Source of the DNA: Lachnospiraceae bacterium
GTDB lineage: Bacteria; Bacillota; Clostridia; Lachnospirales; Lachnospiraceae
Assembly (NCBI GenBank): GCA_017460885.1
Contig: JAFUAB010000046.1
Coordinates: 82,973-146,972, forward strand
Direction of reading: 5' to 3'
Length of the DNA: 64,000 nucleotides
Shown here piece after piece: positions 2,851 through 4,923 of the stretch. The notes below the pieces were generated by a model. The model made no database searches. It was not told where the DNA came from and was given only the letters and a program-made list of their open reading frames with translations. The translations under genes were made by a program, and so were the position numbers. How positions within the stretch are numbered: position 1 is the first letter of the stretch; each line of letters opens with the position of its first letter.

Positions 2851-2886
2851 GGCAATGATAACAGTTCGATTCTGTTACACCCTACG

Positions 2887-2959
2887 CCTCTTTCGCCTAA
2901 TGGTATGGCAGCTGTCTTGTAAACAGCAAAAATCTCAGTTCGACTCTGAGGAGAGGCTC
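2887..2959 (+). tRNA. tRNA-Thr (anticodon TGT)
   Basis: A full cloverleaf is visible. The acceptor stem is GCCTCTT with GAGAGGC (one G-T pair) and the D stem is GCC/GGC. The anticodon stem GCTGT/ACAGC encloses the loop CTTGTAA, and the T stem CTCAG/CTGAG encloses TTCGACT. The discriminator base is T. No CCA is encoded. It lies about 280 bases upstream of the main cluster, separated from it by a small ORF and a terminator. Confidence 0.93.
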
Positions 2960-3069
2960 TGCAGGAATAAAAGGATAGGAAAGGACAGGAGACAATGGAA
3001 GACTAGCGGGGGCAGCACCCGTCGAGACTGCTATATACAATTGATCCAAGATAAAGAAGAGGAAAGAAC

Positions 3070-3165
3070 ATGAAAACACTTTTAACAAGACGAATTTCAC
3101 AGAGACGATCACAATCCAGTCAGCAGTGCTGGATTAGTCGTCGTGGAAAGGAACCATATGGGTAA
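3070..3165 (+). CDS. Possible Arg/Ser-rich peptide, 31 residues
   Basis: The ATG at 3070 has a GAGGAAAG site at suitable distance and opens a 31-codon frame rich in Arg, Ser and Gln. It lies between tRNA-Thr and a rho-independent terminator, so it would be transcribed with the tRNA. It is too short to judge by composition and could be a chance frame. Confidence 0.3.
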   Translation: MKTLLTRRISQRRSQSSQQCWISRRGKEPYG

Positions 3166-3197
3166 AGTGCAGATCGGATCAATGCGGCTGTGAGCTG

Positions 3198-3233
3198 GGG
3201 ATCATTGCGAGGTCTGCGATGATCCCTATTTTT
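3198..3233 (+). terminator. Rho-independent terminator between tRNA-Thr and the tRNA-Ser genes
   Basis: GGGATCATTGC (3198-3208) pairs with GCGATGATCCC (3216-3226) through 11 pairs including one T-G, with a 7-nt loop. It is followed by TATTTTT. It ends only two bases before tRNA-Ser(GCT). Confidence 0.8.
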
Positions 3234-3235
3234 AT

Positions 3236-3370
3236 GCTGTGCATCCGAATGGTGAGGAGCCTGTTTGCTAAACAGGTGAGCTTAACGGCTTTGTGGGTTC
3301 GAGGTCTCCGCTCCGCTCCGGTCGGTGCTGAACGGATGTCCACTGGACATCCAGCACCCCACGCACGGCG
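3236..3370 (+). tRNA. tRNA-Ser (anticodon GCT) with a 54-nt insert in the T-loop
   Basis: The acceptor stem is GCTGTGC (3236-3242) with GCACGGC (3363-3369), and the discriminator is G as expected for Ser. The anticodon stem CCTGT/ACAGG encloses TTGCTAA. A long Ser-type variable arm follows. The T stem GTGGG (3293-3297) pairs with CCCAC (3358-3362), but the T-loop between them is 60 nt instead of 7. It begins TTCGAG and then carries a structured insert. All other parts are normal, and the gene is recognised only if the insert is skipped. tRNA-Ser(GCT) reads AGC/AGT and is normally essential, so the insert must be tolerated or removed unless another copy exists. Confidence 0.82.
3304..3357 (+). 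repeat. Structured 54-nt T-loop insert, copy A
   Basis: The insert contains a short CCG-N8-CGG element and then a hairpin. GTGCT (3326-3330 region) pairs with AGCAC (3353-3357), there is a 4-nt bulge, and GGATGTCC (3334-3341) pairs with GGACATCC (3345-3352) around a 3-nt loop. It aligns without gaps to copy B at 3445-3498. The differences fall largely in paired positions and keep the pairing. Confidence 0.85.
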
Positions 3371-3375
3371 CTCAT

Positions 3376-3511
3376 GGTGAGTTGGCTCAATGGTACAGCA
3401 GCGGTTTCGAAAACCGCCATTCCGAATGGATATCCGGGTTCAAGGTCTCCGCTTCGCTACGGTCGGCGCTAAACGGACATCCACCGGATGTCCAGCGCCC
3501 CGGGCTCACCG
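3376..3511 (+). tRNA. tRNA-Ser (anticodon CGA) with a 54-nt insert in the T-loop
   Basis: The acceptor GGTGAGT (3376-3382) pairs with GCTCACC (3504-3510), followed by discriminator G. The anticodon stem GCGGT/ACCGC encloses TTCGAAA. A long variable arm with CATT/AATG pairing follows. The T stem CCGGG (3434-3438) pairs with CCCGG (3499-3503). As in the preceding gene the T-loop is 60 nt, starting TTCAAG. It starts five bases after the end of tRNA-Ser(GCT), so the two are co-transcribed. The anticodon reads TCG, which tRNA-Ser(TGA) could also cover by wobble. Confidence 0.82.
3445..3498 (+). repeat. Structured 54-nt T-loop insert, copy B
   Basis: It has the same position, length and fold as copy A. 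GCGCT pairs with AGCGC, there is an AAAC bulge, and GGACATCC pairs with GGATGTCC around the loop ACC. Relative to copy A, one outer pair changes from T-A to C-G. Two inner pairs change from T-A and G-C to C-G and A-T. This is compensatory change that keeps the hairpin. Confidence 0.85.
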
Positions 3512-3514
3512 TAT

Positions 3515-3602
3515 GACAGATTAACCCTAACTGGTAAGGGACAGGCTTTGAATACCTGCAGTAGCCGGAAACGGTGTCTGGGTTCGAGTCCCAGATCTGT
3601 CG
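3515..3602 (+). tRNA. tRNA-Ser (anticodon TGA)
   Basis: The acceptor GACAGAT pairs with ATCTGTC, and the discriminator is G. The anticodon loop is TTTGAAT with stem CAGGC/ACCTG, which has a mismatch at the innermost pair. The variable arm is long (GCCG/CGGT around GAAA), and the T arm CTGGG-TTCGAGT-CCCAG is normal. Unlike its two Ser neighbours it has no insert. Confidence 0.93.
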
Positions 3603-3607
3603 TTTAA

Positions 3608-3678
3608 AGGTCTTTGGTGTAGCGGTAGCACGGGGAGCTCCAACCTCCCAAGCGTGGGTTCGATCCCTACAGGACCTG
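3608..3678 (+). tRNA. tRNA-Trp (anticodon CCA)
   Basis: The acceptor AGGTCTT pairs with AGGACCT and the discriminator is G. The anticodon stem GGGAG/CTCCC encloses CTCCAAC. The T arm GTGGG-TTCGATC-CCTAC has one G-T pair. Confidence 0.95.
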
Positions 3679-3684
3679 CTTGAT

Positions 3685-3757
3685 GGCGATGTAGCCAAGC
3701 TGGTTAAGGCAACGGACTGCAAATCCGTGATCGTGAGTTCAAATCTCACCATCGTCT
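3685..3757 (+). tRNA. tRNA-Cys (anticodon GCA)
   Basis: The acceptor GGCGATG pairs with CATCGTC and the discriminator is T. The anticodon arm is ACGGA-CTGCAAA-TCCGT. The T arm is GTGAG-TTCAAAT-CTCAC. Confidence 0.95.
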
Positions 3758-3761
3758 TTAT

Positions 3762-3833
3762 ATCCCCGTAGTCTAACAGATAGAATACTTGGCTACGAAC
3801 CAGGTGATGAGGGTGCGACTCCTTCCGGGGATA
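3762..3833 (+). tRNA. tRNA-Arg (anticodon ACG)
   Basis: The acceptor ATCCCCG pairs with CGGGGAT and the discriminator is A. The anticodon arm is CTTGG-CTACGAA-CCAGG; A34 would be read as inosine. The T-loop is TGCGACT, with G instead of the usual T at position 55. Confidence 0.92.
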
Positions 3834-3837
3834 CTTT

Positions 3838-3924
3838 GGCAGCGTACTCTAATTGGTAAGAGGCTCGTTTGGAAGGCGAGTGTAACGAGGAATCGTGATG
3901 GAGGTTCAAATCCTCCGGCTGTCG
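3838..3924 (+). tRNA. tRNA-Ser (anticodon GGA)
   Basis: The acceptor GGCAGCG pairs with GGCTGTC through six pairs, with a G-G mismatch at the seventh; the discriminator is G. The anticodon arm is CTCGT-TTGGAAG-GCGAG, followed by a long variable arm. The T arm GGAGG-TTCAAAT-CCTCC is normal and has no insert. Confidence 0.92.
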
Positions 3925-3927
3925 TAA

Positions 3928-4000
3928 TGCCGTGTAGTTCAGTTGGCAGAACGCCGGATTCTGATTCCGGAGATCGCAGGTTCGAGTCCTGCCACGGTAG
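3928..4000 (+). tRNA. tRNA-Gln (anticodon CTG)
   Basis: The acceptor TGCCGTG pairs with CACGGTA and the discriminator is G. The anticodon arm is CCGGA-TTCTGAT-TCCGG. The T arm is GCAGG-TTCGAGT-CCTGC. Confidence 0.94.
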
Positions 4001-4005
4001 TTAAT

Positions 4006-4078
4006 AGGCTTGTAGTGTAAACGGATAGCACAGAGGACTTTGACTCCTCTAATGTCGGATCATACCCGGCCGGGCCTG
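4006..4078 (+). tRNA. tRNA-Gln (anticodon TTG)
   Basis: The acceptor AGGCTTG pairs with CGGGCCT and the discriminator is G. The anticodon arm is GAGGA-CTTTGAC-TCCTC. The T stem GTCGG/CCGGC encloses ATCATAC, so the usual T54 and A58 are A54 and T58. All other parts are normal. Confidence 0.9.
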
Positions 4079-4081
4079 TAT

Positions 4082-4155
4082 ACGGATGTATCTCAGCTGG
4101 TAGAGTCCCCGTCTGATACGCGGGGTGTCGGTGAGTTCGAATCTCCCCATCCGTA
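4082..4155 (+). tRNA. tRNA-Ile (anticodon GAT)
   Basis: The acceptor ACGGATG pairs with CATCCGT and the discriminator is A. The anticodon arm is CCCGT-CTGATAC-GCGGG. The T-loop TTCGAAT is normal, with one T-C mismatch in the T stem. Confidence 0.93.
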
Positions 4156-4159
4156 TTAT

Positions 4160-4232
4160 GTCTGCGTCGCCAAAAGGATAAGGCACGAGATTTCTAATCT
4201 CGCATTTGTGGGTTCGAATCCTACCGCAGATA
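4160..4232 (+). tRNA. tRNA-Arg (anticodon TCT)
   Basis: The acceptor GTCTGCG pairs with CGCAGAT and the discriminator is A. The anticodon arm is CGAGA-TTTCTAA-TCTCG. The T arm is GTGGG-TTCGAAT-CCTAC. It is the last gene of the cluster. Confidence 0.94.
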
Positions 4233-4251
4233 CTGGATTTTAGGGGTGAAG

Positions 4252-4397: not shown

Positions 4398-4658
4398 ATG
4401 AACATGCCTTGTATCAAACCAATATCAGAACTGAAGAATTATCCAACGATCGTCAGACAGGTATCATATGGAAACAGGGTTTACTTTACGAAGAACGGAC
4501 ATGGGGCGTGTGCACTGGTAGATATAAACGAACTGGATGAATTGGACAAGCAGAAAGCGCTTCTCAAACTCATGAGTAAGCTGAATGAGGCAAAGATTTC
4601 TGTTCGCGAAGAGGGTACTATATCAGCAGATGACCTCGAGAAGGAGTTGGGCATATAG
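4398..4658 (+). CDS. Type II antitoxin, Phd/YefM family
   Basis: This 86-residue protein has the Phd/YefM layout. The N-terminal DNA-binding domain contains an ISELKNYPTIVRQV segment and the short strand YFTKNGHGACALVDINE. The acidic helical C-terminus (residues 60-86) would bind and neutralise the toxin. A GGAAAGG site precedes the ATG; a second ATG two codons later is possible. The toxin gene starts one base after its stop. Antitoxins of this family normally repress their own operon. The nearby sequence ATATAGGATCTGATATCG, about 60 bases upstream, is a possible operator region but is unproven. Confidence 0.85.
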   Translation: MNMPCIKPISELKNYPTIVRQVSYGNRVYFTKNGHGACALVDINELDELDKQKALLKLMSKLNEAKISVREEGTISADDLEKELGI

Positions 4659-4659
4659 T

Positions 4660-4923
4660 ATGAAAAAGAAGGTGGAGTTTTCTCAGATCGTCAGAAAGAA
4701 AATGAAAAACCTGAAGAAATCACTTACTGACCGGTTTGATGAGGATACAGCCAAAAAGGGGTTAAGATTGATTGTCGATTCTGCAAAGGACCTGGCTGCC
4801 TTTCCGGAAAAAGGTGAAGCAGTTTCGGATCTGTTTGATGTTGATACGGATTTTCGGATATTGTATGTGAACCATAACTATCTGTTCTATTATTTTGAAG
4901 ATGACAAGATAATCGTTGCTTAG
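4660..4923 (+). CDS. RelE/ParE-type toxin, truncated by an in-frame amber codon
   Basis: The ATG at 4660 lies one base after the antitoxin stop. The 87-residue product has the ParE/RelE fold pattern: two N-terminal helices, then strands with FPEKGEAVSDLF, FRILYVNHNYLFYYF and DDKIIVA. The frame is interrupted by TAG at 4921-4923. It then continues in the same frame for 28 more sense codons to TAA at 5008-5010, including MFDEREDFMYKLFGIS, which reads like the normal end of this toxin family. A single change from GAG to TAG would explain this. The toxin is therefore probably inactivated or shortened, unless the amber codon is read through. The homology of the tail is judged by eye. Confidence 0.75.
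   Translation: MKKKVEFSQIVRKKMKNLKKSLTDRFDEDTAKKGLRLIVDSAKDLAAFPEKGEAVSDLFDVDTDFRILYVNHNYLFYYFEDDKIIVA

Follow-up and report, generated by a model that had tools for sequence, protein, structure and literature searches.

What does a 54-nt palindromic insert mean in the T-loops of two neighbouring serine tRNA genes of a Lachnospiraceae bacterium? In the window, by which we mean the whole 64,000-nucleotide stretch of DNA analysed, tRNA-Ser(GCT) lies at 3236..3370 and tRNA-Ser(CGA) at 3376..3511, both on the forward strand. Direct reading confirmed an earlier note in describing both genes as having a 60-nt T-loop and otherwise intact stems. In tRNA-Ser(GCT), GCTGTGC (3236-3242) pairs with GCACGGC (3363-3369) as the acceptor and 3293-3297 with 3358-3362 as the T-stem; in tRNA-Ser(CGA), the acceptor starts at 3376 and the T-stem joins 3434-3438 to 3499-3503. 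The T-loops span 3298..3357 and 3439..3498, and the insert is indeed 54 nt long in both genes, following TTCGAG in the first (element 3304-3357) and TTCAAG in the second (element 3445-3498). With the inserts omitted, ARAGORN called a complete tRNA-Ser(GCT) and a complete tRNA-Ser(CGA) across the join. With the inserts present, it missed tRNA-Ser(GCT) and wrongly ended tRNA-Ser(CGA) at 3460, and the Rfam tRNA model reported neither gene at its gathering score. Because the finders used missed or mis-ended both window genes, counts of tRNA genes interrupted in this way may be too low. Their annotation can also be wrong, since at 3375-3460 ARAGORN assembled a false tRNA-Ser(CGA) 3' end out of the element.

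Both inserts are copies of a dispersed palindromic repeat, about 54-55 nt long, with a consensus near GTCTCCGCTYCGCTNCGGTCGGYGCTAAACGGANRTCCACCGGAYNTCCAGCRCC. Strong covariation is seen between its two sides, with 7 of 16 element pairs altered on both sides among 13 aligned copies, and R1, a covariance model built from those 13 copies (window copies included), matches 175 of 397 family genomes, the source genome among them, when at most 14 candidates per genome are scored. Together, the covariation and these matches identify the insert as a member of the repeat. The window copies score 83 bits (E 5.8e-16) in tRNA-Ser(GCT) and 84 bits (E 3.4e-16) in tRNA-Ser(CGA), values affected by their own use in building R1. 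The source genome has R1 matches at seven places, five of them beyond the window array. A pattern made from the insert, allowing up to three mismatches, matches 10 of 195 genomes, including the source, and ARAGORN found no tRNA at 14 of the 17 other pattern loci examined. In a sample of the class, matches occur in 14 of 291 genomes, eight of which belong to other families and score more weakly; the outside-family loci L386-L388, L390 and L392 share a related consensus.

Changes on both sides of 7 of the 16 pairs and recurrence in many genomes rule out chance structure, and an assembly artefact is unlikely, as similar T-loop insertions are found in separate assemblies. The two window T-loops differ at 11 of 60 positions (10 of 54 for the inserts alone). 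Three compensatory pairs between them, at loop positions 29/59, 40/52 and 41/51, had been taken as a sign of selection on RNA structure in these genes; they are genuine but characterise the repeat family as a whole rather than these tRNAs. Derivation of the inserts from viruses or plasmids found no backing: two element patterns had no exact match in viral contigs, and although a shorter one gave eight stretches, the element profile recognised none of these as a copy and ARAGORN found no tRNA in them. The window array gave only short tRNA-level matches to phages and plasmids, as did the L232 array described below. Away from tRNAs, at L312:565-1500 (source contig C47) and L052:547-1485 (G006), a copy lies directly 5' of the start codon of the same ORF, of about 311 aa and beginning MSAVRYFSRN, in two congeners. 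A SIR2 identity for the ORF beside L312 was unconfirmed, a 200-aa piece having no Pfam match.

How could a bacterium afford such insertions, if tRNA-Ser(GCT) is normally essential, as the earlier note had stressed? The interrupted genes belong to a forward-strand tRNA array at 2886..4233 in the order Thr, Ser(GCT), Ser(CGA), Ser(TGA), Trp, Cys, Arg(ACG), Ser(GGA), Gln, Gln, Ile, Arg(TCT), where the second and third genes are the interrupted ones; ARAGORN lists 11 of the 12, and Ser(GCT) comes from the insert-omitted runs. The array is bordered by an Amidase_3 gene and, at the opposite end, by a weak ParE-like match plus a ClpB-type gene; in that second region, just past the array (4398-4923), the ParE toxin match is just above the cut-off and a weak Phd/YefM antitoxin match falls below it. 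The source assembly (3.6 Mb, 55 contigs, 99.06% complete, 52 tRNA matches) was checked for uninterrupted copies, as had also been proposed, and among the loci fetched it holds an intact Ser(GCT) at L038:271-361 and an intact Ser(CGA) at L036:678-766. The argument from essentiality therefore fails, the window gene not being the sole copy. With an estimated contamination of 6.64%, a foreign origin of these intact copies is conceivable in principle. As intact genes for both anticodons lie elsewhere, the window insertions were presumably tolerated through tRNA redundancy. Intact counterparts also accompany the interrupted array tRNA-Tyr of G344 (at L355) and the interrupted array tRNA-Lys of G368 (a Lys(TTT) at L352); no intact Glu(CTC) was found among the loci examined in G019, which cover part of its tRNAs.

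Arrays related to one another, drawn from Lys, Glu, Glu, His, Tyr and Ser tRNAs, recur (L200, L201, L231, L232, L243, L279), that of L232 being present in part or whole in 8 of 299 genomes, and the interrupted tRNA varies from array to array. The same site can be seen both empty and filled: Glu1 is empty in L279 and filled in L232, Glu2 is empty in L232 and filled in L201, and Lys is empty in L200 and filled in L201. The His site, empty in L232, is filled in reverse in L201, L231 and L279, and a site in the Ser anticodon stem, also empty in L232, is filled in L201 and L231. Comparison of filled with empty sites shows about 1-2 nt replaced, depending on where the ends are drawn, and no target-site duplication of the kind expected of a MITE. 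Insertions occur in both orientations and in the T-loop, D-stem (L218 and L285 among them) and anticodon stem; the tRNA-Tyr of L304 carries two elements, in the T-loop and D-stem. Pairwise differences in exon and insert, respectively, are 8/432 and 13/312 for Glu1, 4/219 and 4/156 for Glu2, 111/1129 and 90/780 for Lys, and 14/204 and 14/157 for His, with 26/1215 for the uninterrupted Tyr. The tRNA-Lys genes of L243 and L285 have, besides the T-loop element, a further hairpin-like insertion of about 18 nt on the 5' side of the anticodon stem.

From these sequence comparisons, we suggest that the insert is probably a small mobile palindrome, prone to enter tRNA T-loops, that was inserted at the DNA level and tolerated in spare tRNAs. 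The palindrome would move as DNA and would have spread through Lachnospiraceae-type genomes, replacing about 1-2 nt on insertion, in either orientation, with a preference for tRNA and often for the T-loop after TTCRAG. A T-loop insertion of this kind would keep TTCRA contiguous and push the hairpin out at a point that we take to be between nucleotides 59 and 60 of standard tRNA numbering. In the window, the element would have struck two serine genes belonging to an accessory tRNA array. Mobility in the strict sense is what we infer here. Among the possibilities raised in the earlier note, a palindromic element targeting the T-loop is the one supported by the dispersed copies, the filled/empty pairs and the enrichment at tRNAs.

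Besides the window genes, Glu, Lys, His, Leu, Pro, Tyr, Ser, Arg and Met tRNAs are interrupted elsewhere. Among best-scoring loci not chosen for tRNA context, a complete tRNA holds 3 of 134 distinct copies; two are the window genes and the third is a congener's tRNA-Met (L169), with the element reversed and an intact tRNA-Met nearby. In a set of 128 copies scoring at least 30, with those of the source genome excluded, the flank is a piece (at least 11 nt) of a neighbouring tRNA for 28 copies, compared with 6 of 650 shifted control windows, although these are not 28 events, as several are tandem copies at one locus. Another 8 have a tRNA in the locus but no flank match, and 92 have no tRNA. TTCR occurs within 9 nt upstream of 39 of the 128 copies and of 144 of 2520 random positions. 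When species genomes were searched for TTCRA with the element behind it, 108 stretches emerged, and in the resulting set, which this search biases toward T-loops and in which several rows represent one insertion in related genomes, an otherwise complete tRNA surrounds 34 of 264 distinct copies; the 34 include a doubtful Ala case (L286) and tRNAs whose identity ARAGORN misread (L243, L285, L201). We suggest that the tRNA bias reflects target choice rather than survival bias.

This raises the question of what moves a 54-nt palindrome, as no transposase was found in a search for Y1_Tnp. Y1_Tnp/RAYT found no support as the mobiliser, showing neither co-occurrence nor linkage with the element: of 299 genomes, 78 had both, 55 only the element, 97 only Y1 and 69 neither (odds ratio 1.01, p 1.0), and the element profile, which is less sensitive than R1 and missed L315 and L316, detected no copy in the 30 best Y1_Tnp loci, of 1.9 to 3.4 kb each. 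Alternatively, the sites could be scars of a recombinase crossing over in the T-loop; phage integration into a T-loop is known (PMC1762012). At L158, L151, L131, L115, L082, L045 and L109, a tRNA 3' end is followed by a terminator-like stretch, TTCRA or TTCG, the element and the same tRNA 3' end again, and the near-identical L315 and L316 (contigs C5 and C35) repeat this layout in the source genome. Many copies near tRNAs have this displaced-end form. Displaced 3' ends (L315, L316, L158, L151, L109, L045) are sometimes arranged in tandem, and a second small hairpin often lies immediately upstream. However, in the cases inspected the two tRNA ends stand only about 100 nt apart, which would not accommodate an integrase or cargo, neither window gene is a displaced fragment, and insertions in stems do not match a T-loop crossover, so we consider recombination scars improbable.

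Insertions of similar length at the same position in several tRNAs might also suggest an RNA intron, cut from the transcript by a nuclease and a ligase. A gene for the ligase RtcB directly follows an interrupted tRNA-Lys in Oribacterium sp. WCC10 (L263:4379-5596; Pfam PF01139, 188 bits) and in Clostridium aminophilum KH1P1 (L224:4637-5854), and another is present at L292:126-1343. RtcB found no support as a general partner of the element, with no match in the 99% complete source genome and genes in 3 of 303 loci, a weak count given that many loci are shorter than 1 kb or overlap. Moreover, the inserts occur in both orientations, in D-stems and anticodon stems and at non-tRNA sites, and removal of the whole element would leave a 6-nt T-loop and, in Ser and Tyr, shorten the stem by 1-2 nt. 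No Rfam group I or II intron core matched the 54-nt insert at the gathering score or at E<=5. Excision by some activity, another possibility in the earlier note, is thus unsupported, given the two orientations, the stem insertions and the lack of RtcB in the source genome, and we regard an intron as very improbable indeed.

DNA-level insertion into spare genes leaves one question, namely whether the interrupted tRNAs still work. They do not look decayed, which a plain dead-gene reading does not predict. The tRNAs could function with the hairpin kept, protruding at the elbow from between nucleotides 59 and 60, since an insertion there leaves the TTCRA stretch, so that the usual T-loop contacts are possible; the T-stem and TTCRA are preserved in the window pair, Glu, Leu, Pro and several Lys tRNAs. 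Four tRNAs, Glu1, Glu2, His and Lys, are each interrupted at one position in several genomes; when they were compared (14 sequences, 27 substitutions; L243 and L285, two of six Lys rows, omitted for their further insertion), 2 stem pairs were broken against 8.6 expected (P 0.003), in a test that assumes insertions shared by descent and in which some substitutions may predate the insertions. Other null settings gave P of 0.003 to 0.03 for the whole set and of 0.014 to 0.39 for subsets, weakest for Lys alone. Mostly pairing-preserving stem changes mean that some interrupted tRNAs may still work, and we regard the preserved pairing as suggestive of continued function. The 34 interrupted tRNAs have 22.1 stem pairs and 65 uninterrupted same-locus tRNAs 21.8 (p 0.39; five false calls partly built from the element excluded), a comparison that favours the interrupted set, as the best of 63 joins was kept per copy and ARAGORN reports good cloverleafs only. 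Rickettsia palindromic elements (RPEs) that sit in tmRNA and M1 RNA genes may be neutral (PMC2229807). On the other hand, tRNA-His has lost two T-loop bases, the Ser and Tyr insertions break stems, just TTCG is retained in the Arg of L263 and the Lys of L307, and two acceptor pairs are broken in the Lys of L231. A working tRNA with an extended T-loop, as the earlier note had also envisaged, has modest support from the stem test; we consider function with the hairpin kept rather unlikely. A stronger version, in which nucleotides 59/60 are a permissive landing site and hairpin-bearing tRNAs are selected, working with a 60-nt T-loop or after the hairpin has been taken out by some bacterial process, seems to us similarly doubtful. 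Naturally filled and empty versions of one tRNA offer a test of how well a large hairpin is tolerated at the elbow.

Our preferred reading, a mobile palindrome inserted as DNA, describes a tiny, selfish-looking repeat within a structural RNA gene that has landed repeatedly in the tRNA genes of related bacteria. Among the titles listed in searches of open-licence PMC papers, none concerned inserts of this kind. Archaeal tRNA introns occur at non-canonical positions, including the T-loop, where this element is also found, but the element is bacterial, occurs in both orientations and outside tRNAs, and resides in a source genome without the RtcB-type ligase expected of a protein-spliced intron. 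REP/RAYT and other small bacterial repeats are short palindromes present in several to many copies per genome; the element is likewise short, palindromic and multicopy, but it has no linked Y1 transposase and prefers tRNA sequence. Tyrosine-integrase att sites share its tRNA sub-site, the T-loop, and displaced tRNA 3' ends lie nearby; in contrast, the space here would not accommodate an integrase or cargo, the palindrome sits within the loop, and neither window gene is restored. RPEs are dispersed palindromes of 105-146 bp within genes, including those for tmRNA and M1 RNA, and are known for in-frame insertions into proteins (PMC2229807). The element differs in its length of about 54 nt, its phylum and its preference for tRNA T-loops, and it is likened to RPEs by description, not by sequence. 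Like them, it is a dispersed palindrome inside structural RNA genes, and those genes also occur without it; the RPEs of tmRNA and M1 RNA genes are the closest published parallel that we noted (PMC2229807).
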